A DNA stretch of 32,796 nucleotides, taken from a virus. The stretch is taken from positions 1 to 32,796 of IMG/VR virus record IMGVR_UViG_3300027983_000064, one strand, 5' to 3'. Below, one piece after another: positions 5,283-27,815 of the stretch. Within the stretch, counting starts at the first letter, position 1; every line of letters starts with the position of its first letter. The position numbers were made by a program, and so were the translations under genes. Below the pieces are notes generated by a model. That model did not search any database. It was not told where the DNA came from and worked only from the letters and a program-made list of their open reading frames with translations.

Positions 5283-5283
5283 G

Positions 5284-7185: not shown

Positions 7186-7208
7186 AATGTTGGTTTATTA
7201 TTGTCTGA

Positions 7209-7216
7209 CAAATGTA
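7209..7216 (-). promoter_or_regulatory. Bacteroidetes -7 box (TACATTTG) before the 329-aa gene
   Basis: On the minus strand TACATTTG matches the TAnnTTTG consensus of Bacteroidetes promoters. It lies directly after a terminator and about 24 nt before an ATG. The -33 TTG element is not clear because that position is inside the terminator stem. Confidence 0.4.
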
Positions 7217-7220
7217 ATAA

Positions 7221-7247
7221 AAAACAGCTTCATAAAGAAGCTGTTTT
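7221..7247 (-). terminator. Terminator after the 87-aa gene
   Basis: A perfect 11-bp stem AAAACAGCTTC / GAAGCTGTTTT with a 5-nt loop. It ends in T residues on the minus strand and sits 3 nt past the stop of the 87-aa gene. Confidence 0.85.
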
Positions 7248-7250
7248 AGT

Positions 7251-7514: not shown

Positions 7515-7527
7515 TTTAGTTTAAATT

Positions 7528-7569
7528 AAAAAAGGAGCAACTAGGGGGTTACCTAGCTGACTCCTTTTT
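7528..7569 (-). terminator. Terminator after the major capsid gene
   Basis: Outer stem AAAAAGGAG / CTCCTTTTT, with an inner stem CTAGG / CCTAG, followed by T residues on the minus strand. It starts 9 nt beyond the capsid stop codon, as expected for a gene needing high, discrete expression. Confidence 0.85.
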
Positions 7570-7577
7570 AGTTAATA

Positions 7578-9194: not shown

Positions 9195-9223
9195 GTTTGT
9201 TGTTTGTTATTTGTATTTAATTA

Positions 9224-10543
9224 TTAACTTCTTGAGAAAATAGATTTACCTGTTCTTTGTAAAGGTTTTTTAGGTAGTCTATTTGCAGTTTGTTTGTTTT
9301 CTGTTGCAAAAGTAGATGAAGAATTTCTACTTGCTTCCTCTGTCTTTAGCATTCTTACGGTTTTAATATTCGCTTCTTTGCTTCCAATCTTTTTTACAGA
9401 ATCTCTGTAGTTTTCTGGATCTGCAAGTAACCATAAAGCTTCAGCTACTAAGCTTGGGTTTGCTTTCTCCCCAAATTGATGTTGCTCTAAAAGAAAGCCT
9501 AAAGCATTTGTTTGTTTCCCATCAGCGTTCTGATACTTCGTAGAATCCGTAAGACCGTGATACAACATTGTCTGAACCTTATTGTTTAAAGGGATTCCGT
9601 TTAAGTTATCCGTATTTAAAGTTTGGTAAATGGTTTGTTGATACTTACCTGCTTGTTCCGTTTTTCTATTTTGTGCTTCTTGTTGTTTTTTTAATCGTTG
9701 TTCAACAATTTCAGCTTGCTTAGCATCTAATTTAGGTTTATACTTTGTAGCGTATTTCTCCATATCCCCACGATCTTTGATGATGTTAATTTCATCTTCA
9801 ATCTCTTCGGATGTGTCGTTACCTAATGTATTTAACCACTGTCTAACAATTAATTCTTGATCCTCTTGGTTTTTAACATCTAAATCAAAAGTTTCTTGAG
9901 CTTTTAAAACTTGACTCATTACTTGTTTTACATCAGTACCTCCATTAAGTGCATAATGAACAACCGCTTGAACATCATCTGGTAATTGTTTAAACAATTC
10001 CAATGGTGCATTTTGTGCAGTATCCGAAACCTTGTTTTCAATATTTGCTTGAATCAACTCCTCAAAGTCTTCAGCTGTATATTGCTCAATAGGTTTATCA
10101 TCAGCAAACGGTTGCAAAATACCTTTTTCGATAAGAGATTTTGCCGCAGTTATTAAAGCGGAAGGTCTGCCTCCTTTATTAACAGAAGAACTGTCGTCGT
10201 CATCGTCGTCGTCTTCGTCAGATTTTTCAAGATCATCATCCAATAACTTAGATGCAATTTTTTCTAAATCGTCTTTACTTAACTTATTTAATTCTTCTTC
10301 ATTATCGATCTCTTCGTCATCATCTAGAAAATCAACATCAACTGTGCCTGAATCAAAAACACGAGGTTTTTTAGTTGGTTCATGACCTTCTGCTCCTTTG
10401 TCTGGAACAATAACAGATGAGGAAGATATTCCCAATAATTCATCTAAGTTGTCAAAATCTATCTCCTCAACCGTTGTTGAGGATTGTGCTGCAGTTTCTG
10501 CAGCAATTTTTGCAGCTGTTGCTGCTTTCTCTTCTTCTGTCAT
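9224..10543 (-). CDS. Acidic scaffold-type head assembly protein (probable)
   Basis: A 439-aa protein between portal and major capsid genes. Residues 20-120 are extremely acidic, with a run of eleven D/E around residue 110 (EKSDEDDDDDDD) followed by SSSVNKGGRP. The rest is Gln/Lys-rich helix with coiled-coil segments (EIVEQRLKKQQEAQNRK) and a basic tail. Acidic, low-complexity, helical proteins at this place usually scaffold the procapsid. There is no obvious protease triad, so a built-in protease is not supported. Confidence 0.6.
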   Translation of the reverse strand: MTEEEKAATAAKIAAETAAQSSTTVEEIDFDNLDELLGISSSSVIVPDKGAEGHEPTKKPRVFDSGTVDVDFLDDDEEIDNEEELNKLSKDDLEKIASKLLDDDLEKSDEDDDDDDDSSSVNKGGRPSALITAAKSLIEKGILQPFADDKPIEQYTAEDFEELIQANIENKVSDTAQNAPLELFKQLPDDVQAVVHYALNGGTDVKQVMSQVLKAQETFDLDVKNQEDQELIVRQWLNTLGNDTSEEIEDEINIIKDRGDMEKYATKYKPKLDAKQAEIVEQRLKKQQEAQNRKTEQAGKYQQTIYQTLNTDNLNGIPLNNKVQTMLYHGLTDSTKYQNADGKQTNALGFLLEQHQFGEKANPSLVAEALWLLADPENYRDSVKKIGSKEANIKTVRMLKTEEASRNSSSTFATENKQTANRLPKKPLQRTGKSIFSRS

Positions 10544-10676
10544 AATGTGTTGGTTTAATTACTGACTTATTATAATTTATGCAAAAAATGCGGGTTTAAA
10601 CAATATTAAGTTAACTGTTTTAGATTCCAAAAAATAAAACCGGAAACTATATGGTTAAAACTTCAAAAACCCAACC

Positions 10677-13412
10677 TTACTTAGGTTTTTTATCGTCATA
10701 TTTATTTTTGTTTTCTCTAGCAATTGCAAACTCTGTTTGTTTATTTCTTTGATCTGACATGATTTTTTCTCTCTCTAAATCTAATTTTTGTTGAGCCATG
10801 TTAGACTTGTTACCTTCTTTTTCTCTGTTAAAATTCATCGTTTCTTGATACTGCTCAGATTCACGCACACCTTTTAAGGCATCTTCATAATCAGATTCTT
10901 GATTTTGATTAATGTCTTGCTGAGCTGCATATCCAGCAGATTTAATTTCAGCTTCCAATAAACGACTACGACGATCCTTTTCTTTTTCCCGTGATTCGTG
11001 ATCCATTTCAAATTTCCGTTCATCCTGTCTTGCCTTAATTTCAGCTTCGGCCATTTGGTTCTCATGGTCCATTTTTTCTTTATTCGCAGCTGCTGCTTTT
11101 TTCTCAATTTTCTTCATCGCGCTATTCAGCGTGCCTAATGAATCAGCTTGCATTAATCCTCCTAAATCATAAATAGAAGCACCACTTGTATTGTTCTGAA
11201 TAAACAATTGTTTTAATTGCTCAAGAGTCGCTCTGTTGTTTGCATTTGTTTGACAAAAAACATTCAAATCAATTAATAACAAATCCGTACCATTCATTTC
11301 AAAGTTTGTCCTCTCCTCTGGAGAAATCATGCCTTGTAGTCTTAATGATGGATTTGTCGAGTGATAATACTGAGCAAGGTCAGTTCTCATTTTATGAACT
11401 CTTGGCATTAAGTGATCACTGTGCTGAGAAAAGTAAACTTCTGTTTGAGCATAAGAACCGCTTACTGCTTGTTCTACACCAGTTGCCGTATTTGTCTGTC
11501 CCAACTGTTGACCCATTCGTTGTGGATTAACTCCTACAACTTCCATCGCTTGTTGTTTAAAATAATTAGCTAACTGTATCCTGGACATTAATCGTCCACT
11601 CTGCTCCATATTTAAAACCTGATAATGCTGAAAGTTAGTTGCACTTTCAGTATTTGCAATACTTGGATCTAATGGAAGTATTGAAAAGTCTTTCATTGCC
11701 ACGTAGGCTTTGTCTAAGTTTCCTTTACCCCAGTCTTCTCCCATAGAATGCTTAGGTAATGCGTTTTGATCTAATACGACAACTGTTCCAATTTCATCTA
11801 TAAGAATATCTGCTATTTGATTATTACACATGTTGAAACCAATTTGTGCGGGTTTCATTAAATCAACTAAAGACATGGACTTCGTATTTCTGTCAGAAAA
11901 AACTCGTCCTTCTATTGGCAACTTAGAACCATAAAGAGAATTGTCTCCTTTGAATTGAAAACGCAAAGCTCCGGGTTCAGATTTATCTATACCTAAGTAA
12001 ATTGAACTGTGTTCTGATTTTTCTATTGAATCCCAAAGAGTACGATTGTTACCAATTTTAACACCACCCCAAACTTCATTAATCCAAGTCCATTCAATGT
12101 GGTCACCAAATATTAAATTCTCTTCATCTTTAGATGCTTTAAATGTTGTATTGTAAACAGGTTTGTCTAAAACAACATACGTTTCATCAATTATCTCAGT
12201 AATTATTTCTCCATTAATGTCAACCTTCGTTAAGTAACCAACTTTCTTTTGAGTTTTCCAATAAGAAGTTGTTACACGAGCCATACCTGAGTTTTCTAAT
12301 AATCCTGAATGCTGACTTTGACCTGTTATCCACCCTACAATATCACTATCTCCCATTTGATTGTCAAGAAAGCTCAAGTGTCTTTTCATATCAACACCAA
12401 CCATTCTGTTACTTTCTACAGACTCATCCGTATTGTAATCAGAACCATCTATCATTCCTGGTATTAAGCTTCGCGCAGAAGTTGACGGATACATTGACTC
12501 TAACGAATTTAATTGATCCTCAGTCATCAAGTATCCGAAAACATCAATAACATCAGCAATAGTCATTAATTCAATCCACCCAGCCCAGTTGGCTTGAGAT
12601 ATGTATTTAACATTTGGAGACTTATGGTAAAAAGTTAAAGCAGGGTTTAGTAAGTTAATGTCATAATCATTTTCTAACATTCTAAAATGCCAAAATTCAC
12701 TGTCAGTTATTAACGAATCCCTAAAAGCCTCTTCTTCCAATTCATCCATGTTAAATCGATTAACATCAATTGCATGTTGTTTAGTGGCCCATTGTTCACC
12801 AACAGTTTGATAGGTTTTATTGTAAAAACTTTCAATTGCAGGTAAACCTCGTAATGCTTCTGGATTTAATTGTTGTTGAGCTTCTTCTGAATTTGGATCC
12901 ATTCCTTGCTCAATCATTGCAGCAACCATTTTTTGTTGCGCATCTTCAAGTAAAACGGAAGAGATTGCTTCCATTTTTTTATCCATTATCTCATTGTAAG
13001 AATACTCATCAATTGCTCGGTAATCAACTTTAGTGTTTCTTTTTGCAAACTCTGTTACAAGAGTGTTTATTACATTAGGAATGATTGGATAAAACTTTAA
13101 ATCCATTGCTGAATCTTCATGGCCCTCGTCAATAAGAGCAGCCATCATGTCACCGTATTCATTTTCAACATCAGGGATGTAATCAGATTTATCAATTGTG
13201 CCAACTGCCAATTTATAATTCTTCATTAACCTACGGGACTTTTCTGTAATCTGCTTGATAGCCTGCCACTCCATCCAATCCATGTTGTGCATGGCATACT
13301 CAATATCTTTTTCTGCCATTGGAAGAAATTGGATAGGTTGAGTAAAAACACCAAACTTGTTACGTTTAGTTTTTTTACCTTTCTTAATATCCATTGCATT
13401 TAAAATCTCCAT
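10677..13412 (-). CDS. Portal protein
   Basis: A 911-aa protein starting directly after the TerL stop (adjacent codons). The first ~690 residues hold the long mixed alpha/beta body expected of a portal. A segment near residue 630 reads SRIQLANYFKQQAMEVVGVN, with the following GVEQAVSGSYAQTE typical of the portal stem and crown region. Residues about 760-911 are a charged coiled coil (KEKMDHENQMAEAEIKARQ), a tail seen in portals of crAss-like and related phages. It forms the dodecameric ring through which TerL pumps DNA. The 130-bp gap behind it has no strong hairpin. Confidence 0.8.
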   Translation of the reverse strand: MEILNAMDIKKGKKTKRNKFGVFTQPIQFLPMAEKDIEYAMHNMDWMEWQAIKQITEKSRRLMKNYKLAVGTIDKSDYIPDVENEYGDMMAALIDEGHEDSAMDLKFYPIIPNVINTLVTEFAKRNTKVDYRAIDEYSYNEIMDKKMEAISSVLLEDAQQKMVAAMIEQGMDPNSEEAQQQLNPEALRGLPAIESFYNKTYQTVGEQWATKQHAIDVNRFNMDELEEEAFRDSLITDSEFWHFRMLENDYDINLLNPALTFYHKSPNVKYISQANWAGWIELMTIADVIDVFGYLMTEDQLNSLESMYPSTSARSLIPGMIDGSDYNTDESVESNRMVGVDMKRHLSFLDNQMGDSDIVGWITGQSQHSGLLENSGMARVTTSYWKTQKKVGYLTKVDINGEIITEIIDETYVVLDKPVYNTTFKASKDEENLIFGDHIEWTWINEVWGGVKIGNNRTLWDSIEKSEHSSIYLGIDKSEPGALRFQFKGDNSLYGSKLPIEGRVFSDRNTKSMSLVDLMKPAQIGFNMCNNQIADILIDEIGTVVVLDQNALPKHSMGEDWGKGNLDKAYVAMKDFSILPLDPSIANTESATNFQHYQVLNMEQSGRLMSRIQLANYFKQQAMEVVGVNPQRMGQQLGQTNTATGVEQAVSGSYAQTEVYFSQHSDHLMPRVHKMRTDLAQYYHSTNPSLRLQGMISPEERTNFEMNGTDLLLIDLNVFCQTNANNRATLEQLKQLFIQNNTSGASIYDLGGLMQADSLGTLNSAMKKIEKKAAAANKEKMDHENQMAEAEIKARQDERKFEMDHESREKEKDRRSRLLEAEIKSAGYAAQQDINQNQESDYEDALKGVRESEQYQETMNFNREKEGNKSNMAQQKLDLEREKIMSDQRNKQTEFAIARENKNKYDDKKPK

Positions 13413-15641
13413 CTACTTTATGTTTTTATAAGGATTTCTTTTTTCTCTAACTCCTAATCGAGTATTGCCGTTTTGACCAATTGTTTTAAACGGCGATCTA
13501 TTTAATTTAACGAATTTTTCCGAACTATCCAAATGATCCTCATTCTCATACTCAACTCTTTTCTTTAAACCTCTGCTTGATTCTTGAATTTTCACAAATG
13601 TAATTAATGCACCTAAACTTATTAACCTATCGACATTTATTCCAGGTTGGTACTGTTCCATTTCAATCATTGCCATCATATCAGGAATCCTTGTGATTCC
13701 GTAAGTAACAATTTGACCTTGTCCTCCATGAGTTTCTTCTACATCTAATTCTTCTTTTAAGAACTCAATTAAGTAACTAAGCATAATGGTTTTGAAAATA
13801 GTAGATACGTTTCTCCAACCGTAAGTCTGGAATTGAGTTTTAGATGCTTGAACTTCTTTAGAAAAGACCATCTGAGATGAAGGCACTAAATACTTTTGCT
13901 TTCGTTTGAATTGCATGTATTGAATAAACAAGGGGACGTTATTCTCAACAATTGTCCAGGCTTGATACCACTCAATTATTAAAAGCAATCGCTCATGTGT
14001 TTTGTTAATGTCATCAAACCTTCCACACCAAGCAGCTACAATTTTATCACCCTCCACAAATGTTTCTACCTCCCCGTTATCTTTAACCCGCTGAACTTGA
14101 ACTGAGTTTTTGTAAACATAAATCGAACACAATGATTCTGAAGTTACTGTCTTTCCTTCTCCAACAGGGTCAATTGATGCAAAATAAGTTCCGCAAAAAA
14201 CCTTGTCTTCATCGGGTTCTTCCCAAACTTGTATAACACTTGTTTTATCTTCCGCTTTTTTATTGATTGGAAACTCTGTAATTGCTGCTTTTAATGTTGG
14301 AGATGCCATTATTAAGTTATTTTCAGTATAACTTAAATTGTAACCGTTCCAAGGATAATCTCCGTCGTCAATTCTGCGCTTGTTTCCTTTAACTAAATTT
14401 ATTGGGAAAATGCTTTCTCCTCTTACAGCAAACGCTTCTTTTAAATTTGTTGGATGCTGAGAACATCTAATTTGATATATTTCTGGAGAAAGATCTTTCT
14501 TCCACTGGATACGTTTTTTGTTAATTGCTTCAAGAGCTTTGTCTACAAGAGAGTTACCAAACGCATCAATGTAAGGAGGCATTGAATATTGTTCTGGAAT
14601 AAATAAACCAGAAATACCAGCAGTTCCATCTTCATCCATGTACTTGTTACGAACACCATAGAAACCATTTGCTTTTGGTTTATACATAAATTCTCGTAAC
14701 GGTTCACAATGTTTCAAGTCACCTACAGATCCTGCGCCAACAAAGTAACCAGTAGTTATGTCACCAGACTCCATTGCTGGTCGCATAAACTCGTAAGTCT
14801 TATTCATAGTTTTCGCAATCCCTGCTTCCTCGTAAAAAAACAAGGTACATAAACCACCTACACCACTTGTGTCAGACTGCTCAAAAGATGTAGCTTTTAA
14901 AGTACCTTTTCTTCCTTTTTCTGACTTCCTGCCTTTATCAACGTATTCGATTTTTTGTTGCCATTCTCCTACACCACTTGGGTTCAAGGGTCTATACCAA
15001 GCAGTGTGGTCATTAAGAAATACTTTGTAATCATTTAGTATTTTCCATGTACCATTTATACCAGTAATGTAATCACTCAAAGAAGCTCCAATTTTTAATA
15101 CAGGACCATACTCAAACCAAAGAAGATTTATTAGTTTTGCCGCGTGATACAAAGATGAACCAAACTGTCTTTTTTTAAGTATAACTCCGTGCTCGTAATT
15201 TAACTCTCCAATTATTTCATAGAGTGCCATGTGCAACTGAGTATCCCAAATATCAGTAAAGTCAGATCTCTTTTTTACTTTATCACTAATGTGCAAAAAG
15301 TTAATCCAGAAATAATAATCTCGTGGAAGATACCATTGTTTTTTACCTACTTTAAAAAAACATCCTTTTCTTGATTTCTTTTTTTGGTCATCCCAATACT
15401 TAATGAAATCACGAGATCCGTGATTTGCTTCTGTATAGTATCCGTTTTTTCTAAAAAACAACCCCGGTTCTTGCCACAACCTAACTGTTTCATCCAGATC
15501 GTATTCACCAGGTTCCTTGAAGTAGTTATCTTCAAGGTCTGTTTTAAAATCTTCTCGTGTGTCATAGTCTACAGTCGTCCATACCCCATTATCAAAACAG
15601 GGGATGTCCGTGTAAATTTCTCCAAATGGATCTTTAATCAT
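13413..15641 (-). CDS. terL: Terminase large subunit (ATPase and nuclease)
   Basis: A 742-aa DNA-packaging motor. The ATPase part has a deviant Walker A (KKRQFGSS, residues 156-163) and a Walker B (LFFYEEAG, about 267-274, with E271/E272). The RNase H-like nuclease has the three acidic clusters: SIDPVGEG (D491), IVENN (E566) and RIPDMM (D654). It is longer than the usual 500-600 aa because of an N-terminal extension of about 130 residues and extra loops, as in crAss-like phages. It starts 8 nt inside the end of the 170-aa gene, so translation is coupled. It acts with the portal immediately downstream. Confidence 0.92.
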   Translation of the reverse strand: MIKDPFGEIYTDIPCFDNGVWTTVDYDTREDFKTDLEDNYFKEPGEYDLDETVRLWQEPGLFFRKNGYYTEANHGSRDFIKYWDDQKKKSRKGCFFKVGKKQWYLPRDYYFWINFLHISDKVKKRSDFTDIWDTQLHMALYEIIGELNYEHGVILKKRQFGSSLYHAAKLINLLWFEYGPVLKIGASLSDYITGINGTWKILNDYKVFLNDHTAWYRPLNPSGVGEWQQKIEYVDKGRKSEKGRKGTLKATSFEQSDTSGVGGLCTLFFYEEAGIAKTMNKTYEFMRPAMESGDITTGYFVGAGSVGDLKHCEPLREFMYKPKANGFYGVRNKYMDEDGTAGISGLFIPEQYSMPPYIDAFGNSLVDKALEAINKKRIQWKKDLSPEIYQIRCSQHPTNLKEAFAVRGESIFPINLVKGNKRRIDDGDYPWNGYNLSYTENNLIMASPTLKAAITEFPINKKAEDKTSVIQVWEEPDEDKVFCGTYFASIDPVGEGKTVTSESLCSIYVYKNSVQVQRVKDNGEVETFVEGDKIVAAWCGRFDDINKTHERLLLIIEWYQAWTIVENNVPLFIQYMQFKRKQKYLVPSSQMVFSKEVQASKTQFQTYGWRNVSTIFKTIMLSYLIEFLKEELDVEETHGGQGQIVTYGITRIPDMMAMIEMEQYQPGINVDRLISLGALITFVKIQESSRGLKKRVEYENEDHLDSSEKFVKLNRSPFKTIGQNGNTRLGVREKRNPYKNIK

Positions 15642-16146
15642 CGTATCCTAATTTAGTACCACCTCTTGCTCTTGACGATTGCTCCTCTTCTAAATCTTTA
15701 GCTACACCTTTAAACGATTTTCTAATGTGGTCAAAGTTTTTTGCTGCATTAACAATGGAGGTAATGTTACCATCTCTTCCATCGGTAATGTCTTGCGTCC
15801 CCATGTAGAATGCCAGTTTCTCAAGCATGTTGGAGATTCCGTCATAAGCTCTAACAGTAGGAGTTTCGTATAACTCCTTAGTTCTTTTTAAAGCAATTAC
15901 AATTAGATCATCTTCTGTGCAAAAAGTTGCTTCTAAATCTTCAATAATCTCTTCCTCAATGTTATCTTGAGGTCGATTAAAGAAAGGGTTTTCTTGACTT
16001 CGGCAAGACATGTAAAACAAATAAGCAAGTATTTTTAAATACTCATCTGGATACGCGTCAACAATGTTTTTTAAGAACGGAAGCTGGTAAACATGCTCCG
16101 TAGGGATAACATTGCGATTTACAATTTCAAATAATTTAATGGCCAT
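15634..16146 (-). CDS. Candidate terminase small subunit
   Basis: A 170-aa mainly helical protein with acidic stretches (NIEEEIIEDLE) and a basic C-terminus (SSRARGGTKLGYDD). It overlaps both the nuclease gene upstream (11 nt) and terL downstream (8 nt). The position directly before terL and the helical build are what one expects of a small terminase, which recognises the phage DNA. I do not see a clear helix-turn-helix, so the call is by synteny. It could also be another conserved gene of this block. Confidence 0.4.
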   Translation of the reverse strand: MAIKLFEIVNRNVIPTEHVYQLPFLKNIVDAYPDEYLKILAYLFYMSCRSQENPFFNRPQDNIEEEIIEDLEATFCTEDDLIVIALKRTKELYETPTVRAYDGISNMLEKLAFYMGTQDITDGRDGNITSIVNAAKNFDHIRKSFKGVAKDLEEEQSSRARGGTKLGYDD

Positions 16147-16975
16147 GGTTTAGTATTTTTTCTCGATTATTATTTACAAATTTAAACAAGGTTAAAACCT
16201 CCGATTTAAGATACGGAATGTTGTATGCAGTAACTTTCTTTACTACGGGGTTTCTATCTGCATCAAGTTTAACAATAGGGTATCCAAACTCGTTTAGTCC
16301 AGTTAACTCAAATTCAACATGATCTATTCTCATTACTCCAGGACTAAGTGTAGGATTGTGCTTTAACATCATGTACATGTAAATGCTTAATTGCAAAGCA
16401 TAATCATTAAAGTTGCAATCATCTAAATGAGACAATGGAGGGAGCATTTTTTTTGTTTTCCCATTGTTCATTTTAAACCCTTCTTGTTTAATTTCCTTGT
16501 TTGTTTTGTAGTCATACAAGTCAATAAACTTATCGATTTTTTCTACCCTGTCGGCTTGTCCGCAAATACCTGAAGATTTTAAGTAAACCAAGTGCTCAGG
16601 ATGAATACCATCAACTAATTTTTGATCTGGAGCTAACTTAACGGTTCCTTCCATTAATGGAACTAACACTCTTAGTTCAACCCCTTTTCTTGTAATGGTA
16701 CTGCAACCAATTATATCTCTTTCTCTTTGATCGTGATACCAAGAACCAACAGTAATTGCTCGTAAGTTTTCGTCCTTCCAGATTTTTCTAATTGCTTCAG
16801 GAGTCTTGCCTGTGTATTTTGGGTTTTTTCCTTTTGAACAACTAACGGACATTTTCATTTCATCAAATTCTTCTTTGAAGTAATGAATTAATCTAGTAAC
16901 ACTTATCCAATCTATTTTTTCAGAAGGATCAGCACTTATGTATTTGTGGGTGTCTGCGTAAAATTTAATTGCCAT
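16136..16975 (-). CDS. PD-(D/E)XK nuclease (RecB/Cas4-like)
   Basis: A 279-aa protein with the motif order of the RecB/Cas4 nuclease group: a histidine motif VGSWYHDQRERD (H81), GQADRVEKID (D142), YDYKT (D155 and K157) and YALQLSIYMYMM (Q195). These are the metal-binding and QxxxY motifs of the family. It would cut or resect DNA, probably in replication, recombination or packaging. It is separated by only a few bases from the 75-aa gene and overlaps the candidate TerS gene. A nuclease beside terL is also found in crAss-like phages. Confidence 0.8.
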   Translation of the reverse strand: MAIKFYADTHKYISADPSEKIDWISVTRLIHYFKEEFDEMKMSVSCSKGKNPKYTGKTPEAIRKIWKDENLRAITVGSWYHDQRERDIIGCSTITRKGVELRVLVPLMEGTVKLAPDQKLVDGIHPEHLVYLKSSGICGQADRVEKIDKFIDLYDYKTNKEIKQEGFKMNNGKTKKMLPPLSHLDDCNFNDYALQLSIYMYMMLKHNPTLSPGVMRIDHVEFELTGLNEFGYPIVKLDADRNPVVKKVTAYNIPYLKSEVLTLFKFVNNNREKILNHGH

Positions 16976-16977
16976 AA

Positions 16978-17205
16978 TTATAGTTTGTTATTTATTATTT
17001 TAGTTGCTAATGAAACTACGTCATTGTCATCAGAACTTATCATTTTTAAAAGCTTGGAGTGCTCTTCTTTAGTAATGCTACCTGTGTCTGTCAAAGCTTT
17101 TAGCTGCTCCTTTAAGTGAATGAATGAGAAACTCTTGTTAATTTCTTTCATCCCAAGGACTCCTGTATATATCCGTAAAGTTCTATCAATTAAGTTTTTC
17201 TCCAT
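16978..17205 (-). CDS. 75-aa helical protein, unknown
   Basis: The start is placed at MEKNLIDRTL (ATG at 17205), because the 12 residues before it in the longest frame lie inside the upstream gene and the ATG overlaps the end of that gene (ATGGAGAAAAACTTAATTGA). The product is helical (KEQLKALTDTGSITKEEHSK), with the two-helix pattern of small regulatory or structural proteins. It lies between the zinc-ribbon protein and the nuclease. Function unknown. Confidence 0.55.
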   Translation of the reverse strand: MEKNLIDRTLRIYTGVLGMKEINKSFSFIHLKEQLKALTDTGSITKEEHSKLLKMISSDDNDVVSLATKIINNKL

Positions 17206-17509
17206 CTTGTAGTTTCTTATTAAGAATGTATTCTTCTTCAAAGGTCAATTCTGCCAACCAGAAACCGTTTGGACATTCTGATGACAAAGACCTTGTTTTT
17301 AATTTCAAAGTGCACCCACAATCTCCACAGCAAGGACCTGTTCCAGGAACTACACACGAAGTACCTTTCTCATCAAACAGATCGCATTTTTTACAAACAG
17401 CAAGTCTTTCTTCAGCAATTAATTCAACGTGTTCAGTCTTAAAGAGGTTGTTCTTTATCCCCTCTAATATCTTGCCTTTTTCCTTCCAAATTTTTATTGC
17501 GTTTTTCAT
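17186..17509 (-). CDS. Zinc-ribbon protein
   Basis: A 107-aa protein with a four-to-six cysteine cluster in the middle: CKKCDLF, SCVVPGTGPCCGDCGC and SECPNGFW. Its pattern is that of a zinc ribbon followed by an aromatic cap. Proteins of this kind occur beside the late block of several Bacteroidetes phages. Its first 71 nt overlap the HU/IHF-like gene in another frame, which is unusual, but no later ATG exists. It could serve as a nucleic-acid-binding or transcription cofactor. Confidence 0.65.
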   Translation of the reverse strand: MKNAIKIWKEKGKILEGIKNNLFKTEHVELIAEERLAVCKKCDLFDEKGTSCVVPGTGPCCGDCGCTLKLKTRSLSSECPNGFWLAELTFEEEYILNKKLQDGEKLN

Positions 17510-17843
17510 AAATTGGCTTGTAGTATTCGTTGCAAATTTCTAAAGATTCCTTTTTTAAATTTAACAAGTCGTGCGTTAAATTGTACTTAATAATTTTTTT
17601 AAAGCTTTCATGATCTCCGCCTGAAAGTATTTTCTCTAATCCCGCAATGTCTCTTCTTAATTTAACTCTGCTTATTTTTATTGTTCCCAAGCTATGCAAA
17701 AAAAGCGAAGGATTTTTTAAAGACTCCATTTTTTTAATTACCGTTTCCCAATAAAAATCAACAACGTCTTGGACCATTTCTTGAGAAAGATTAAGATCAA
17801 CCGCGGTTTTATGTATTAAGCTCTTTGCTTTTGTTGGTGTCAA
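17439..17843 (-). CDS. HU/IHF-like DNA-bending protein (divergent)
   Basis: A 134-aa protein. Residues 1-75 follow the HU/IHF layout: helix (AKSLIHKTAVDLNLSQEMVQ), helix (VVDFYWETVIKKMESL), then a beta strand with the LGTIKIS turn. This matches the 'GFGtF' type strand entry of IHF subunits. The C-terminal 45 residues are a charged extension. IHF-like proteins near the packaging genes are a known feature of crAss-like phages. It would bend DNA during replication, packaging or late transcription. It overlaps both neighbours. Confidence 0.6.
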   Translation of the reverse strand: MTPTKAKSLIHKTAVDLNLSQEMVQDVVDFYWETVIKKMESLKNPSLFLHSLGTIKISRVKLRRDIAGLEKILSGGDHESFKKIIKYNLTHDLLNLKKESLEICNEYYKPIYEKRNKNLEGKRQDIRGDKEQPL

Positions 17844-18195
17844 CGTGATATACTTTTAGTTCAATTAAAATGTTTCCTTCTGTAAAAATAGACATATCCT
17901 GGTTGACAGAAATAATCTTATTTCCATTTCCGCTGCGTTTTACAAGACTTCCTTTTACTGATTTTGTAATAAAGTTTCGAGCTGTTTGACTATTGCTAAA
18001 AATACTTTCTTTTACTGTTTCTTCACAAAAATCAGAAATATTCATTTCTCCATACATACCTAATAAAGCTAAACAATCAAGTTGGGCGGGGCTCACTCGA
18101 ATCTTATTTATGAAACAATAATTATTCAACTGAAACCTAACTATGTCATAAAGAGAAAGCTTTATGTTTTTTTTAATTAAGTTACCCTTGCTCAT
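17809..18195 (-). CDS. Winged-helix DNA-binding protein (probable)
   Basis: A 128-aa protein with a helical region (VSPAQLDCLALLGMYGEM, then ISDFCEETVKESIFSNSQTA) leading into a wing-like beta pair (GSLVKRSGNGNKIISV). This is the order of a MarR-type winged helix. It is the second gene of the late operon, so a late-gene activator is an attractive but unproven role. It overlaps the 86-aa gene before it and the HU/IHF-like gene after it. Confidence 0.5.
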   Translation of the reverse strand: MSKGNLIKKNIKLSLYDIVRFQLNNYCFINKIRVSPAQLDCLALLGMYGEMNISDFCEETVKESIFSNSQTARNFITKSVKGSLVKRSGNGNKIISVNQDMSIFTEGNILIELKVYHVDTNKSKELNT

Positions 18196-18442
18196 TTTTT
18201 TCAGTTAAGGGTTTATCATTCTCTTCATCTTGTTTAGTTAAAGACGTGTACAATTGTATGTATTTAGTACGAGCATCTAACTCTTCGTATTCCGCTTTTT
18301 TTTGTCTTGCTTTTAACTCATCAAACTCTGTTTTTAATCTCATAAACGGAAGTTGGTCTTCATAAAACAAAATTTGTTTACGTCTATACTCCTTGATTTC
18401 CTCAACGGTAACCTCTTTTTCTTTTGCTTTTTCTTTTACCAT
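18182..18442 (-). CDS. 86-aa charged coiled-coil protein, first late-operon gene
   Basis: The product is almost entirely Glu/Lys-rich helix (KEKAKEKEVTVEEIKEYRR, KTEFDELKARQKKAEYEE) with heptad spacing. It is the first gene after a well-formed promoter, with a leader of only about 10 nt, and it overlaps the winged-helix gene by 14 nt. Function unknown; a partner or regulator of the DNA-binding proteins that follow is possible. Confidence 0.6.
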   Translation of the reverse strand: MVKEKAKEKEVTVEEIKEYRRKQILFYEDQLPFMRLKTEFDELKARQKKAEYEELDARTKYIQLYTSLTKQDEENDKPLTEKNEQG

Positions 18443-18487: not shown

Positions 18488-18505
18488 AAAAAGTTAGCAA
18501 TCAAA

Positions 18506-18529
18506 AAAGCCTCCCGTCAAGGAGGCTTT
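18506..18529 (-). terminator. Terminator between the lysis operon and the late operon
   Basis: A perfect 9-bp stem AAAGCCTCC / GGAGGCTTT with a 6-nt loop. T residues follow on the minus strand. It ends the operon whose last gene is the 97-aa basic protein. Confidence 0.88.
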
Positions 18530-18557
18530 GTAATTTAATGAATTATAACAAAAATAA

Positions 18558-18851
18558 TTATTTTAATTTTCTTGTTCCTCCTTTACCATTTCTGGCTCTG
18601 TTGGTAGATGCTTTTTCATTAACCAATTTTCCTTTTGAGGTATGTGATTTATCCTTACCGTCTCCATTACCGTAGGTTCCTGATTTTCTATTTGCTTTGT
18701 TTAAACCTGACCGGTAAGCTTTTCTTTCTGGTGTAGCATGGTATGCTTTATTGTAAGCATCCTTTTTTTTCTTTGCTGCAGGGTTTGAAGCAAAGTATTT
18801 TGCTGATTCACTTTTTCCTGTAGACTTACCTGCTAACCCGTTACGTGCCAT
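18558..18851 (-). CDS. 97-aa very basic protein, small phage family
   Basis: Lys/Arg/Ser/Gly-rich protein with recognisable segments GKSTGKSESAKYFASNPAAK, YNKAYHATPERKAYR and a GDGKDKSHTSKGKLV stretch. Similar small basic proteins are widespread in phage genomes of several hosts, and I believe this is one of them, without a defined function. A nucleic-acid-binding role is suggested by charge. It is the last gene before the terminator and follows the endolysin. Confidence 0.65.
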   Translation of the reverse strand: MARNGLAGKSTGKSESAKYFASNPAAKKKKDAYNKAYHATPERKAYRSGLNKANRKSGTYGNGDGKDKSHTSKGKLVNEKASTNRARNGKGGTRKLK

Positions 18852-23349: not shown

Positions 23350-23570
23350 ATAATCCTTTTAATTTTTTTGCCAACCTTAATTTTTAATACTTTAGGAAAA
23401 CTCCTCTTCCTGAAACGAACCATGCTTTTTCTCATCAACTTATCCTGCTTAATCATCTTCCTGTGATTGTCATACAACATCTGATTATGTATCCCCCCAC
23501 TCGACTTGCAACCAAAAAATACCCCCCCTACTAAAAAAAATAAAACTATAAAATAATTCCGTAATCTCAT
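23346..23570 (-). CDS. Small basic lipoprotein
   Basis: A 74-aa protein with a lipoprotein signal peptide: basic start, hydrophobic core (YFIVLFFLVGGVFFGC) and lipobox GVFFG-C21 followed by KSS. The mature part is strongly basic (RKMIKQDKLMRKSMVRFRK). A lysine after the acylated Cys is common in Bacteroidetes. Phage lipoproteins may be outer spanins or superinfection-exclusion factors; either is possible. It is second in its operon and overlaps both neighbours by 4 nt. Confidence 0.65.
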   Translation of the reverse strand: MRLRNYFIVLFFLVGGVFFGCKSSGGIHNQMLYDNHRKMIKQDKLMRKSMVRFRKRSFPKVLKIKVGKKIKRII

Positions 23571-24052
23571 GGAAGCAATAACTCATCAAAATAAACCAAA
23601 CAATCCTTAGCTATAGTCTTACGCTTACGAGCCAAATGAGGATTCAACATTATGTGCTTAAACTCAATCCCATCCTTAACACCACTAACATAATAAATCA
23701 CACCACCCTTATACAAACGCTTCATGAAATCAGAATACTTATTCCTTGTGTACTTCAACTCATCCATCAAAGACAAATCAGTATGAGGTACCTTGCGATC
23801 AATATACAAAATGTTATAACTGCCATTAGTCATATTGGCCATCTTCAAGATTCTCCCGTAATCAACAGGACTAAAGTTAACCAAAATGTAATTCAATGCC
23901 TTAGAATCAATCACAACGTATTCATCACTATGAACAATAACCAAATCCTCATCAACAACATTAACAGTGCTACCAGATGGTAATACCTCCCCAGTAGTAA
24001 GATCTACCATCTCACCAGTCAACTTCCTTTTCTTTACTATGGGTTTTATCAT
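23567..24052 (-). CDS. RepL-like winged-helix protein, first gene of its operon
   Basis: A 161-aa protein. Its C-terminal half holds a helix-helix-wing run (DELKYTRNKYSDFMKRLYK, GGVIYYVSGVKDGIEF) ending HIMLNPHLARKRKTI. This ending resembles the 'hxlNPxlxRKr' of plasmid RepL-type and related replication or regulatory proteins of Bacteroidetes. It likely binds DNA as a regulator or replication factor. The TATCTTTG promoter box lies just before its ATG, so the mRNA is close to leaderless. Confidence 0.6.
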   Translation of the reverse strand: MIKPIVKKRKLTGEMVDLTTGEVLPSGSTVNVVDEDLVIVHSDEYVVIDSKALNYILVNFSPVDYGRILKMANMTNGSYNILYIDRKVPHTDLSLMDELKYTRNKYSDFMKRLYKGGVIYYVSGVKDGIEFKHIMLNPHLARKRKTIAKDCLVYFDELLLP

Positions 24053-24083: not shown

Positions 24084-24185
24084 GCACCTTTTTTGGTGCA
24101 TTAATTTAATTATTTGCACCTTTTTGGGTGCAAACCAAAACCAATTCATTGAGCTGTAGCGTTTTCTCTGCACCTTTTTGGGTGC
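24084..24185. repeat. Three GCACC-N6-GGTGC hairpin repeats (operator candidates)
   Basis: Copies at 24084-24099, 24116-24131 (stem extended to 8 bp, TTTGCACC / GGTGCAAA) and 24170-24185, each with a T-rich 6-nt centre. They are placed just behind the minus-strand promoter, so they look like operators or RNA hairpins at the strand switch. The first 350 bp of this 560-bp gene-free stretch hold no gene I can support. Confidence 0.75.
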
Positions 24186-24404
24186 AACGAAAAGCCACAA
24201 CTCCCTCTAAATCAACCACCTCCGTAAAGCTCCCTATATTACTATTATTACAGAGAGATTTCTACACAAAATTTACCCAAAATTTACAACTACTCCCCCC
24301 CAGAAAGGTAGCACTACTTTTAAAGAACCCCCACCTGGGTAAACCAAAAAAATAGTGCACGGGGAGGGGTGAGGGATGATATATAATTTAATCCCCCCAT
24401 CGAA

Positions 24405-24534
24405 GACAGCTTTGGGGTACCCCCCTTGGTTTCTATCAGCTTCGCTGGAAACCAGAGCTTAATTCAGCCAAAAACTTGGCTGGGGGAAGTTGTTTGTTTG
24501 AGAGGTGTTCATCCTCTCCTTCGTCGAGGCTGTC
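24405..24534 (+). ncRNA. Candidate structured RNA at the strand switch
   Basis: A closing stem GACAGC (24405-24410) / GCTGTC (24529-24534) encloses three hairpins: TGGTTTC / GAAACCA with an inner CAGC-TTC-GCTG (24427-24454), CAGCCAA / TTGGCTG (24465-24482) and GAGAGG / CCTCTC (24500-24518). This is a four-way junction layout, shorter or longer than any tRNA and with no CCA end. It may be a stand-alone RNA or the leader of the 24615 gene. A GGGGTACCCC palindrome (24414-24423) lies inside. No known family recognised. Confidence 0.45.
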
Positions 24535-24566
24535 CCAGAAAGTGACTTTTGGAGAGATGAGTTGTG

Positions 24567-24593
24567 TATTCTAATCTTAAATTGCAAGCAATT
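24567..24593 (+). repeat. Leader repeat copy 1: TATTCTAATCTT plus 14-bp palindrome
   Basis: TATTCTAATCTT followed by AATTGCAAGCAATT (24580-24593), a near-perfect inverted repeat, placed 22 nt before the ATG at 24615. Related copies occur at 25475-25500 and 25605-25631 with different arms that still pair. Confidence 0.75.
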
Positions 24594-24614
24594 ATTAACT
24601 TAAATAAAAGTATT

Positions 24615-24926
24615 ATGAACAAATTTGAAATAATGGAAGTCATGGCAATGACTTCAGAGAAAGAACTAATTGACGCTCTTGCTGAGCGTCAATTAGAACA
24701 AAATGATGATGCAGACTTTGACGAGTTTGCATTCATGGATTACCAGTCATCCTCATGCTCTGATGAGTATGAGGATGATGTGGACTACGCTATGCAAGTA
24801 GCTGAGAGTCTGCTTGCTGAAGCATTCGCTCTTCAACAAGAAGAGCTTAAACATCTAACGGAAGATGAAATCAATGCCATTTACATGGCAGATGATTGTG
24901 AGTATGAGGATGATCTACCTTGGTAG
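24615..24926 (+). CDS. 103-aa extremely acidic protein
   Basis: The start is set at MNKFEIMEVM (ATG at 24615), after the leader repeat. The product has about 32 Asp/Glu and only four Lys/Arg, with clusters such as DDADFDEF, DEYEDDVDY and CEYEDDLPW. It is helical between them. This charge pattern is seen in DNA-mimic anti-restriction or anti-host proteins, which is a guess here. It is the first gene of the plus-strand region, consistent with early expression. The DNA itself is folded into five inverted repeats (see findings), one spanning the stop codon. Confidence 0.7.
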   Translation: MNKFEIMEVMAMTSEKELIDALAERQLEQNDDADFDEFAFMDYQSSSCSDEYEDDVDYAMQVAESLLAEAFALQQEELKHLTEDEINAIYMADDCEYEDDLPW

Positions 24927-24966
24927 GTCATCCTTTAGTATTAACCCTTGAGCTGTGGGGGTAATG

Positions 24967-24999
24967 AGTGCGACACAATAGCCAAGTGAACGTCGCACT
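24967..24999 (+). repeat. 8-bp inverted repeat in the intergenic leader
   Basis: AGTGCGAC (24967-24974) and GTCGCACT (24992-24999) pair perfectly around a 17-nt loop, 16 nt before the next ATG. It belongs to the hairpin-dense tract. Confidence 0.8.
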
Positions 25000-25015
25000 A
25001 TTTAAACTAAAGAGT

Positions 25016-25180
25016 ATGAAGTTAGTATCCATTCTTATAGTCCTGATGATGGGACTTAACATACTATGCTCAGGCATAGTATTCATGCAAAGAACGGCTC
25101 CAGAGATGGAGCTATTCCTAGTGTTCGTTATAACCTTATCCCTTGCCATCATTGTTCTGGCATTGAAGGGTGATGAATAA
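25016..25180 (+). CDS. 54-aa two-pass membrane protein
   Basis: The start is set at MKLVSILIVL (ATG at 25016). Two hydrophobic segments (SILIVLMMGLNILCSGIVF and MELFLVFVITLSLAIIVLAL) flank a short polar loop with QRTAPE, and the end is KGDE. This is a small inner-membrane protein; a superinfection-exclusion or membrane-targeting role is conceivable. Inside the gene two perfect hairpins (25061-25082 and 25097-25112) have 4-nt loops. Confidence 0.6.
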   Translation: MKLVSILIVLMMGLNILCSGIVFMQRTAPEMELFLVFVITLSLAIIVLALKGDE

Positions 25181-25188
25181 GTCACATC

Positions 25189-25214
25189 CACCCATGCTCA
25201 GTAGAGTGTGGGTG
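25189..25214 (+). repeat. 11-pair hairpin with AGTA loop after the membrane gene
   Basis: CACCCATGCTC / GAGTGTGGGTG pairs over 11 positions, with two G-U pairs in plus-strand RNA, around AGTA. It starts 8 nt past the stop. There is no T-run, so it is not a classical terminator. Confidence 0.8.
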
Positions 25215-25293
25215 ATATGTTACATAAGAGATTACTATCTCTGTGTAGGTATAGTATGCACACCCGACCACAGGTTACACCTAGTACCCTAGC

Positions 25294-25392
25294 TCATAGC
25301 ATCGAGCATCGAGCATCGAACACAGTTCATAGCATCGAGCATCGAGCATCGAGCACAGTTCATAGCATCGAGCATCGAGCATCGAGCATCGA
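25294..25392. repeat. Nested tandem repeat: GCATCGA heptamers in 33-bp units
   Basis: Three units, starting at 25294, 25327 and 25360, each TCATA followed by three, three and four copies of GCATCGA; the first two end in (A/G)CACAGT. That makes ten heptamers. It lies in a 557-bp stretch (25181-25737) with no gene I can support; a frame through it only echoes the repeat. Iterons of a replication origin or partition site would look like this, as would a recently expanded spacer. Confidence 0.9.
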
Positions 25393-25393
25393 G

Positions 25394-25407
25394 CCTGTAA
25401 TTACAGG
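25394..25407. repeat. 14-bp perfect palindrome CCTGTAATTACAGG
   Basis: A perfect palindrome directly abutting the last heptamer repeat. As a symmetric site it could bind a dimeric protein. Confidence 0.85.
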
Positions 25408-25474
25408 GCGACAGTGTAGTGATGATAGTAAGCTTCGCTTCCTCTACGCACTCTCGTCACGCACTGACAGTGTC

Positions 25475-25631
25475 TATTCTATCTTATCGTTGCAAGCAAC
25501 TCACGTTTTATGTTTTGATGGTACTGCTTGCAAGCAAGCTATGGTTTACGCTTAGTGTTTATTCTAATTTACTCCGCAAGCTTCGTTACGGATTGTTTGT
25601 TGTTTATTCTAATCTTCAAGTGCAAGCACTT
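25475..25631 (+). repeat. Leader repeats copies 2 and 3, with related palindromes
   Basis: TATTCTATCTT with GTTGCAAGCAAC (25475-25500), then GCTTGCAAGC near 25526, a degenerate TTATTCTAATTT at about 25558, and TATTCTAATCTT with AAGTGCAAGCACTT (25618-25631). The arms change together so that pairing is kept while the GCAAGC core stays. No gene is seen in this part. Confidence 0.75.
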
Positions 25632-25737
25632 TCTTAGGCCTTTCGGCCCGCTTCGCTATTTTTGGCTTCGCTTAGATTGTTGCAAGGTGTTATGTGCTAC
25701 CTATATAAGTGCGCATTATTTTAATACCCAAGAAAAA

Positions 25738-26418
25738 ATGATTAATTCATTTAACTTGAAGGCTGAAGCTTTAGCCTTCGTAATCGACAATTCTAACTTG
25801 TTAGCTAATCCGTTAGCTAAGTTCGAACGTCTAACTCGTACAGAGTTAGACGTTTTAATTCAAGAGATTGAATTAAAACAATTTGCATCTTCAGATGCAA
25901 TTGAGGATGCAGTTGAAATCCAGGAAAACGTGACGTACTCTACAATAGAGACAACACGTGCTAACGGTGAAGTTGTTGCGATTGAATGCGCAATGCTTGA
26001 ATTCATTAAGACTGCGGTTAGCCGTGGTGTGATTAAATTCCATTTTGCTTTCGGTAGCTCAATGGTTAGTTTGCGTAACTCTATGCTGGAAAGCATTTTA
26101 GAAAATCAATTTGACAATGATATTGTCAAGTTTAATTCAGAAATGAAGGGAAAGATTTTCCCTATCGTAAATGAAGCTATCACACTTCCTGCGAGCGCAG
26201 GAGGACGTGCAAGCTACACCGTTGTTTATAACGGACGTATTTTGGAAAGTGCAGTACCAGAAATGGTACAAGCACGCGAGAATGCGTTAGCTTTGGAATT
26301 TGCATTAGCGAAGAAGTCGGCTAAGATGCGAGAAACATTGGGTGCATTGGACGAAGCAACTCAAGCTGAAGTTCGTGCTCAAATAGCTGCAGGTATTGCT
26401 AAAAGCTTAGGTTATTAG
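25738..26418 (+). CDS. 226-aa helical protein, hairpin-dense gene
   Basis: The start is set at MINSFNLKAE (ATG at 25738). The product is mostly helical, with acidic and Ala-rich stretches, a middle with short beta segments (RASYTVVYNGRILESAVPEM) and a C-terminal Ala/Glu/Lys helix ending AAGIAKSLGY. No catalytic or binding motif is seen. At least nine perfect inverted repeats of 6-12 bp lie inside the frame. A strong terminator follows, so the product is probably abundant. Its function is unknown. Confidence 0.7.
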   Translation: MINSFNLKAEALAFVIDNSNLLANPLAKFERLTRTELDVLIQEIELKQFASSDAIEDAVEIQENVTYSTIETTRANGEVVAIECAMLEFIKTAVSRGVIKFHFAFGSSMVSLRNSMLESILENQFDNDIVKFNSEMKGKIFPIVNEAITLPASAGGRASYTVVYNGRILESAVPEMVQARENALALEFALAKKSAKMRETLGALDEATQAEVRAQIAAGIAKSLGY

Positions 26419-26429
26419 TAATACCTGAT

Positions 26430-26477
26430 ACTGTAAAAGAAGTGCACTACCTTATGTGCGCTTCCCTTACAGTTTTT
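26430..26477 (+). terminator. Terminator after the 226-aa gene
   Basis: Outer stem ACTGTAA / TTACAGT, inner stem GAAGTGCAC / GTGCGCTTC with one mismatch, then TTTTT. It lies 12 nt past the stop codon. Confidence 0.85.
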
Positions 26478-26484
26478 AATTAAC

Positions 26485-26680
26485 GCTTCAAAACTATTGA
26501 TTTAGTTCTGAAGCACTAGGTATGCCATAGAACATAGGCTAAGTGTATATTTACACACCGAGTATTAGTTCTAAAACTACATCAGCGAATAATAGTAGCT
26601 GATGAACAATTGAGTTTACCTATTAAATTAGGGTTACAGTTGTTTTTATTTAATTTTACTATCACTAAACCCATGAAAAA
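26485..26680 (+). promoter_or_regulatory. Leader with hairpins and MKK minigene before the 108-aa gene
   Basis: Hairpins GCTTCA / TGAAGC (26485-26514), GTGTA / TACAC (26543-26556) and CATCAGC / GCTGATG (26580-26604) are followed by the motif ACTATCACTAAAC (26658-26670). An ATG at 26673 opens a three-codon frame (Met-Lys-Lys-stop) whose TGA overlaps the ATG of the real gene at 26681, so it could couple or tune translation. Confidence 0.45.
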
Positions 26681-27007
26681 ATGAACATTGTTAATTTAAC
26701 ACCGCATTCTATCTCCCTACAAGTGGGAGATAAAACCACGATTTTCCCAGCAAGTGGGACGGTGGCTCGTGTGAGCCAAGAGTGTGTCCCTACGAGGGAC
26801 GAAATTGCAGGTGCATTAGTGTACTCGTCTACCTTTGGAGAGGTGGACATGCCAGGAAAAATAGACGGTACTATATATATAGTATCTGGAATGGTATTAA
26901 CAGCCTTAGCAGGCTGTAGGGGTGACGTGATTGCACCCAAAACTGATAGCACGGCTATCAGAAACGACCAAGGTCATATTGTTGCTGTAACCGGTTGGTT
27001 GCAGTAA
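26681..27007 (+). CDS. Conserved NLTPH-type phage/plasmid protein
   Basis: A 108-aa protein with the pattern of a family widespread in bacteria, plasmids and phages: VNLTPHSISLQVG at the start, FPASGTVARVS, then STFGEVDMPGKIDGTIYIVS and a GDVIAPKTDSTAIRN-DQG end. Its function is not established. Several pieces of this pattern are present in order and at the expected spacing, so the family call is good. The gene carries at least six perfect hairpins in its coding DNA. Confidence 0.7.
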   Translation: MNIVNLTPHSISLQVGDKTTIFPASGTVARVSQECVPTRDEIAGALVYSSTFGEVDMPGKIDGTIYIVSGMVLTALAGCRGDVIAPKTDSTAIRNDQGHIVAVTGWLQ

Positions 27008-27034
27008 CATAAGTATTAATTTAAAACTTGTAGT

Positions 27035-27112
27035 ATGAGTGAAGAAGAAAAAATTATTGAAGAGATTAATTTCTTCCTCCGTATGGAGGAAGAAAGTTAT
27101 CATTTAAGATAA
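27035..27112 (+). CDS. 25-aa peptide
   Basis: A short frame MSEEEKIIEEINFFLRMEEE then SYHLR, starting 27 nt after the previous gene. It has a helical, acidic profile. An 11-bp perfect hairpin with a GTAT loop (27070-27095) covers a third of it, so the frame could be incidental to the hairpin. Weak support. Confidence 0.3.
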   Translation: MSEEEKIIEEINFFLRMEEESYHLR

Positions 27113-27122
27113 CAAATAAAAC

Positions 27123-27251
27123 ATGAACCCAGCGCAACTTAGGTTGTTAAGCAACTTGTCAGCGGTATCATTAGCTGACGTACACTTGTGTACGCGTAGT
27201 TGGGTTAAGTCCCGTGAACGATTAACATTGTTTACGGGACTTTTTAATTAA
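27123..27251 (+). CDS. 42-aa peptide overlapping a terminator
   Basis: Frame MNPAQLRLLSNLSAVSLADV through FTGLFN, starting 10 nt after the 25-aa frame. Its last codons encode the terminator stem at 27207-27246, and it holds a GTACAC-TT-GTGTAC hairpin at about 27179-27192. It may be a real leader-type peptide or a chance frame. Confidence 0.25.
   Translation: MNPAQLRLLSNLSAVSLADVHLCTRSWVKSRERLTLFTGLFN
27207..27246 (+). terminator. Terminator ending the hairpin-dense gene set
   Basis: AAGTCCCGT (27207-27215) pairs with ACGGGACTT (27234-27242), 9 bp, 18-nt loop, then TTTT. Confidence 0.75.
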
Positions 27252-27442
27252 ATAAAAACACGGTAGGTTAAGGCATTTGTCTTATGAAATAACTAGACTA
27301 CATAGTGCGAAAGCACAGGGATAAGCTTGTAACCCAAGCACATGGTAACACATCCACACTCCAGAGACAATCTCTGTTGTGTTGGTGTTATTGTGTATCA
27401 CTCAATGAAACCTCGCGGTTTCAGCCGTTAGGCTCCTTCCCT

Positions 27443-27577
27443 TCCCATAGCAAACCATGTCCGGAAGTACATACACAGAAATCACTGTCCCATAGTTTGC
27501 AGTGTCCGGAAGTACACACGTAAAGATTACTGTCCCATTCCCGACCATGCCCGGACGATAGTTACTATCATCAATAA
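27443..27577. repeat. Three 45-bp direct repeats
   Basis: Units begin TCCCAT at 27443, 27488 and 27533 and share the core TG(T/C)CCGGA followed in two copies by AGTACA. The period of 45 keeps frames open on both strands, but the frames only echo the repeat. Located in the 369-bp gene-free stretch 27252-27620. Iterons or a protein-binding array are possible. Confidence 0.85.
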
Positions 27578-27620: not shown

Positions 27621-27815
27621 ATGTCAGAGCAACAAATAAAAGAAATGAGAATACAAAATGTTAGACTTACTGCTTCAGAGTTCTACAACATGAGAGCTTT
27701 AGCAATGCAAAACAACGTACCAATCACACACAGGTGGGAAGATGATGGTGTGTCCGTAAAAGTAGATGTATCGTTCCTTATTCAGTACGAATACCTAGAC
27801 ATGATAAAATTCTAG
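27621..27815 (+). CDS. 64-aa protein, unknown
   Basis: A small charged protein (MSEQQIKEMRIQNVRLTASE, then FYNMRALAMQNNVPITHRWE) ending in an aromatic beta-type segment. Coding is supported by a normal start after the leader and by codon use like its neighbours. It marks the end of the hairpin-dense tract, because its own coding DNA shows no comparable inverted repeats. Confidence 0.55.
   Translation: MSEQQIKEMRIQNVRLTASEFYNMRALAMQNNVPITHRWEDDGVSVKVDVSFLIQYEYLDMIKF

Follow-up and report, generated by a model that had tools for sequence, protein, structure and literature searches.

Dense short hairpins in a probable early transcription unit of a crAss-like phage point to selection on sense RNA structure

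In the IMG/VR record IMGVR_UViG_3300027983_000064, which was analysed whole (32,796 nucleotides or 32.8 kb, hereafter the window) and represents a partial genome of a crAss-like phage, genes and gaps alike are filled with perfect short hairpins over a tract of about 3 kb (24405–27422), and the question raised by this locus is what produces so much structure inside protein-coding DNA. A preliminary description made from the letters of the sequence had named 11 hairpins and counted more than 20; all 11 exist, although the one placed at 24667–24697 with a 7-nucleotide loop lies one base away, at 24666–24696, with a stem of 13 and a loop of 5. The hairpin saturation is confirmed, and selection for structure in the early sense messenger RNA (mRNA) is well supported. 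It is further considered, with moderate confidence, that the sense RNA of this early unit is selected for dense short stem-loops which most likely shield the first messages from single-strand-specific attack.

Perfect hairpins were defined by a stem of at least 6 and a loop of 3–8. The tract contains 31, 16 and 10 hairpins with stems of at least 6, 7 and 8, respectively, against 4.7, 1.3 and 0.3 expected, and none of 200 dinucleotide-preserving shuffles reached the observed count at any of the three stem lengths, which bears out the suspected density beyond chance. Inside the open reading frames (ORFs), where codon-preserving shuffles keep the protein and its codon use (300 per ORF), the gene for the 226-amino-acid protein carries 9 hairpins vs 1.8 expected and that for the 108-amino-acid protein 6 vs 0.4 (0 of 300 shuffles in both cases), whereas the shorter ORFs of 103 and 54 amino acids carry 4 vs 1.0 (6 of 300) and 2 vs 0.25 (4 of 300), and the six ORFs of the tract sum to 23 hairpins vs 6.1 ± 1.7. 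The folding energies agree, the mean minimum free energy (MFE) z-score of 120-nucleotide segments relative to dinucleotide shuffles being −3.24 in the tract (25 segments), −0.39 to its left and −0.50 to its right, with sharp edges of the structured region near 24.4 kb and at 27.4–27.6 kb. Most other genes of the window lie near the codon-shuffle expectation, including thyX (1 vs 1.6), which had been singled out as free of the pattern; a mild in-gene excess is seen in TerL (13413–15641, 8 vs 3.9) and in its upstream neighbour (15634–16146, 4 vs 0.8). An assembly artefact is unlikely, because the reading frames are uninterrupted and samples of independent origin show the same excess. No Rfam family matched above the gathering score in the window, and the loci of the relatives gave transfer RNAs (tRNAs) only; a weak match to Phe_leader below the threshold (E 0.0045) covers a 9-bp hairpin, probably a terminator, at 18500–18570 on the minus strand.

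The position of the tract within the genome suggests when it would be transcribed. The TerL, portal and major capsid proteins of the window belong to head-and-packaging families of PHROGs, mark a tailed double-stranded DNA phage and are also homologous to those of Crassvirales by blastp, with TerL at about 24% identity; together with the giant virion RNA polymerase encoded in relatives, outside the window record, they place the phage in Crassvirales or close to it. In the relatives G004, G008 and G012 the giant late ORFs are homologous to the virion RNA polymerase of phi14:2, with DYDxD aligned to the DFDID active site; the one in L104 (G004, 4197–18221) is an ORF of 4675 amino acids in which the crAss-type virion RNA polymerase region is joined to alkylated-DNA-repair-like, DprA-like and C-terminal Dda-like helicase regions. 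The late genes run leftward from 24052 and the early genes rightward from the tract. The early genes of crAss001 are reported to be active by 10 minutes, and those of phi14:2 to be transcribed by the virion polymerase (PMC8375218, PMC10136315). Because the early-mRNA status proposed in the preliminary description fits both this layout and the published crAss transcription, the tract is regarded as the probable start of the rightward early operon, which would be one transcript made early; the shielding purpose proposed with it is something we infer.

The excess recurs at the same place in IMG/VR relatives, whose TerL proteins are 64–100% identical to that of the window and in which the tract is flanked by the same two genes (left and right anchors in Table 1). 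Counted from anchor to anchor, which raises the window from 31 to 35, hairpins number 35 vs 5.6 in the window, 33 vs 8.1 in G008, 25 vs 5.7 in G012, 23 vs 8.0 in G004 and 19 vs 6.0 in G013, and 13–15 vs 5–7 in G016, G018, G010, G014 and G006, with the partial loci of G003 and G020 likewise enriched; G010 and G011 are identical or almost identical in sequence, as are G013 and G027. The z-score of the excess ranges from 2.4 to 8.7 in ten relatives from other metagenomes and reaches 12.1 in the window, and in whole-record profiles of G004, G008 and G012 the top kilobase falls in the tract, downstream of which the genes are mostly unstructured. The tract DNA of the window is mostly unalignable with that of the other genomes, and its genes are small and fast-evolving; gene content differs among the relatives while the excess persists. 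No second exact copy of the tract was found in the IMG/VR collection searched, which may not include near-identical records, and the contig ends of other relatives showed no tract. Intergenic hairpins are present in all genomes that were split into coding and non-coding parts, and in-gene saturation, which is strong in the window, G004, G008 and G012 and weaker in G016 and G013, varies across the lineage and is not universal.

These counts bear on the plainest explanation, by which ordinary regulation alone is at work, promoters, leaders and terminators supplying the hairpins and those inside genes being chance matches. Such regulation would account for the intergenic hairpins and for the weaker relatives, but it is very unlikely as a full explanation, being disfavoured by the codon-preserving shuffles and failing for the in-gene hairpins of the window as well as for those of G004 (15 vs 6.7), G008 (23 vs 8.0) and G012 (14 vs 5.3).

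Whether RNA or DNA is the structured molecule, and on which strand, was assessed from helices with one non-Watson–Crick position, with 100 codon shuffles as the expectation; if the sense RNA is the folded molecule, helices should accept G-U but not A-C. Among the pooled in-gene helices of the window, G004, G008 and G012, G-U positions number 24 vs 5.4 expected (0 of 100 codon shuffles), A-C positions 5 vs 3.5 and other mismatches 10 vs 13.6, with 51 perfect helices vs 16.8, and the G-U share lies above the codon-shuffle share with p = 0.01 in four genomes and p = 0.005 in six, pooled values that are optimistic in that some relatives are related to each other. Outside the tract the ratio of G-U to A-C is 10:9. 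Hairpins with TTCG loops, several of which are terminators, are confined to the sense strand (9 with TTCG and none with CGAA once duplicate tracts are left out), and double substitutions in aligned segments kept the pairing in 73% of hairpin pairs vs 44% of control pairs. Since the in-gene helices tolerate G-U and not A-C, selection appears to act on the sense RNA rather than on the DNA.

A cause at the level of DNA could be template-switch mutation that makes quasi-palindromes; alternatively, replication or packaging could rely on cruciform or single-stranded DNA signals. The stems are perfect, as such a cause would predict, and the in-gene excess is about even across the three codon registers, which is also expected of a strand-blind process (the register test did not separate mutation from selection). 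This explanation is nevertheless highly improbable, because G-U and A-C differ in polarity, TTCG loops are found on one strand only, start codons are spared, and the limits of the tract match those of a single early gene block with a terminator-like hairpin at its end; palindromes or a packaging signal in the DNA are disfavoured by the same polarity. The preliminary description had left the choice between selection on RNA or single-stranded DNA structure and a mutational process; of these, selection on structure is supported, with the sense-strand RNA favoured over a DNA-level role or strand-blind mutation. Stable mini-hairpins of the d(GCGAAGC) type were rejected as a common feature; they occur in the window as GCTTCGC, but G004, G008 and G012, the relatives with strong saturation, have none.

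The distribution of pairing along the genes also speaks to function. Around start codons (−20 to +19) the pairing probability is about 0.44, and from +20 onwards it is 0.60–0.70; the early RNAs look built for translation because pairing is low around the starts and high beyond them. It is conceivable, but improbable, that the structure tunes the translation of early proteins, with hairpins slowing or spacing ribosomes or coupling neighbouring small genes; in-gene stems that begin beyond +20 and a unit made of short ORFs would suit such tuning, whereas genes in general have an open start region, the stems show no conservation of position, and the excess remains while gene content differs among relatives. 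The short ORFs cover only about half of the tract, and this coding share, together with the structure of the whole RNA, could instead be seen as a sign that the RNA acts in trans, for example as a decoy titrating an RNase, an RNA chaperone or a defence sensor. That possibility is quite improbable, given that the in-gene hairpins have no recurring loop or shape, that the tract holds no Rfam family and that no TROVE protein was found in the 12 records of relatives searched; the RNA-binding protein Ro60/TROVE, suggested as a partner by crAss001, was rejected on the same search.

Under the preferred reading, that of shielded early messages, the tract would be the unit of the early operon that is transcribed first, rightward and probably as a single early transcript, by the virion RNA polymerase, which would be encoded outside the record. 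Short local stem-loops would fill the sense RNA from end to end, reading frames included, the ribosome landing zones would be left comparatively open, and the first phage messages would thus be poor substrates for host endoribonucleases or RNA-targeting defences in the minutes in which infection depends on them. A bulk property is likelier than specific sites, because the stems turn over, share no common loop, fill the reading frames and spare the starts; the earlier idea of specific binding or packaging sites finds no support for the bulk of the in-gene hairpins, among which no loop or position recurs.

Several observations weigh against this reading. Taken by itself, the window gives no significant G-U excess (G-U 9 vs A-C 5, small numbers), the polarity resting on pooled genomes, some of them interrelated, and helices with one mismatch in the non-coding part do not favour G-U (4 vs 5). 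Compensatory changes are found mainly in the intergenic leaders and terminators, while the in-gene hairpins turn over. Relatives keeping the genes without the pairing, named in the preliminary description as evidence against selection, were found in part, as G010, G014 and G018 have in-gene hairpins at or near the codon-shuffle level and retain the intergenic ones, so that in-gene saturation is not essential to the lineage. No hairpin-saturated tract was found in the cultured phages phi14:2, crAss001, cr116 and FpV4, where hairpin excesses include tRNA clusters. That in-gene saturation varies speaks against an indispensable housekeeping role and would be in keeping with a pressure that depends on the host.

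Apart from the bulk of in-gene hairpins, the tract holds a repeated leader element, which is a separate feature. It consists of the motif ATTCTAA (variants ATCCTAAA and ACATAAA) followed directly by a hairpin whose stems vary but remain paired, on the sense strand and within the tract, and many copies stand about 12–30 nucleotides before an ATG. The window has four copies (one imperfect), G008 five, G012 four, and G010, L095, G018 and G006 two each. Copies with the shared flanking consensus all lie inside the tract in the four records with marked tract limits; scattered matches of motif plus hairpin elsewhere are without this consensus, and the loose pattern alone proves nothing, because its total matches are near the number expected by chance. 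The loops are specific to genome type, with CAAG in the group of the window, TTAC or TTGC in G008 and TTC, TTT or TCTC in G012, and the hairpin energies, calculated as DNA or RNA on either strand, are not discriminating. The element is a candidate promoter of the crAss-type virion RNA polymerase, or may be a 5′ leader. No published promoter for this enzyme was found in the literature searched, which did not include the main paper on it.

The early promoters of the N4 virion RNA polymerase offer the closest comparison for this element, being early, repeated and promoter-like with a short hairpin, and they need a 5′ G and a 3′ A in the loop and a C:G closing pair (PMC4496689). On the template strand, 8 of the 9 loops of G008 and G012 have G first, A last and a C:G closing pair. 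Two G012 copies fit the N4-type rule of 5–7 bp and a 3-nucleotide loop fully (7 bp, template loop GAA), a third has AAA, and the G008 copies and one G012 copy have 4-nucleotide G..A loops closed by C:G, whereas the loops of the window read CTTG on the template; the N4 polymerase, moreover, is T7-like and not of the crAss type.

The virion polymerase also figures in another explanation of the saturation itself, in which the nascent RNA folds behind a virion polymerase that is poor at separating RNA from template, so that RNA:DNA hybrids are prevented. The N4 virion polymerase forms such hybrids on a single-stranded template, without an RNA-separation element (PMC4496689), the crAss-type virion polymerase is encoded in relatives, and the tract is the first early unit. 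Aid to the polymerase is still an unlikely explanation, since the downstream genes, which this polymerase presumably transcribes as well, are mostly unstructured, the cultured crAss-like phages that have it lack such a tract, and the crAss type shares no homology with the N4 polymerase.

As for shielded early messages, the known systems resemble the locus in part. Phages phi14:2 and crAss001 share the placement of late and early genes on opposite sides as well as homologous TerL, portal, capsid and virion polymerase, but they, like cr116 and FpV4, show neither the tract nor the leader. In T4 and T7, phage mRNA is stabilised by 5′ hairpins and RNase III processing; these also stand ahead of early genes, but as single stems at defined sites that leave the reading frames unsaturated. 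A further likeness is to positive-strand RNA viruses with genome-scale ordered RNA structure (GORS), where coding sequence likewise folds locally and pervasively beyond composition and codon controls, as the tract does over a long stretch by its MFE z-score and codon-shuffle counts, and where the extent also varies among related viruses. GORS has been linked in published work to interaction with innate RNA defences (PMC3950689). It differs in spanning a whole replicating RNA genome, whereas in this double-stranded DNA phage the structure is confined to about 3 kb of probable early mRNA and the rest of the window has z of about −0.4.

The features of the locus are collected in Table 1. The 226-amino-acid protein, used as a query, gave no further relatives beyond those in G008 and G012, and its predicted structure was not used (pLDDT, the predicted local distance difference test score, of 41). 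The phrog_30542 protein has relatives in phage records of Paenibacillus, Pararheinheimera, Thermobifida and Methanofastidiosa. Further repeats were observed in and around the tract: three GCACCTTTTTTGGTGC-type hairpins at 24084–24186, ahead of the leftward late genes, with similar sequences in G006, G018 and G020; a tandem array at 25294–25394 of 33-nucleotide units built from AGCATCG; and two 45-nucleotide direct repeats with TGTCCGGAAGTACA at 27443–27532, between the tract and the next gene.

Table 1. Coordinates of the hairpin-saturated tract, its genes, leader copies and flanking anchors in the window (aa, amino acids; nt, nucleotides).
Position	Strand	Feature	Details
23567–24052	−	Left synteny anchor, 161 aa, function unknown	Left of divergence point; 68–82% identical in 11 relatives, 33% in G008 and G012
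24405–27422	+	Hairpin-saturated tract, probable start of rightward early operon	31 perfect hairpins vs 4.7; MFE z −3.24; same position enriched in relatives
24567–24593	+	Leader element copy 1	TATTCTAATCTT and hairpin AATTG-CAAG-CAATT, 21 nt before ATG at 24615
24615–24926	+	Early ORF, 103 aa	Acidic; 4 perfect hairpins
25016–25180	+	Early ORF, 54 aa	Resembles small membrane protein; 2 perfect hairpins
25475–25500	+	Leader element copy 2	TATTCTATCTT and hairpin GTTG-CAAG-CAAC
25560–25591	+	Leader element copy 3	TATTCTAATTT and short imperfect hairpin (TCCG/CGGA); weakest copy
25605–25631	+	Leader element copy 4	TATTCTAATCTT and hairpin AAGTG-CAAG-CACTT
25738–26418	+	Early gene, 226 aa	9 perfect hairpins; G012 relative E 8e-7; ORFs of about 200–227 aa in same place in most relatives
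26681–27007	+	Early gene, 108 aa, phrog_30542 (function unknown)	6 perfect hairpins
27035–27112	+	Putative small ORF, 25 aa	With 11-bp hairpin; no relative found
27123–27251	+	Putative small ORF, 42 aa	Mostly hairpins; ends in terminator-like hairpin
27207–27250	+	Terminator-like hairpin	16 pairs including G-U, then T run; probable end of early unit
27621–27815	+	Right synteny anchor, conserved 64-aa gene	Hairpin excess stops before it

In its widest form, the interpretation is that a lineage of double-stranded DNA phages armours its immediate-early mRNAs, reading frames included, against RNA cleavage or RNA-targeting immunity, and carries in the same unit several copies of a hairpin promoter used by the crAss-type virion RNA polymerase; this is put forward tentatively, as less likely than not. 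RNA structure that extends through coding sequence is known from RNA viruses, and here it is seen in one early gene block of a DNA phage, where its strength differs between relatives and so may provide a natural series in which the purpose of such structure could be tested.

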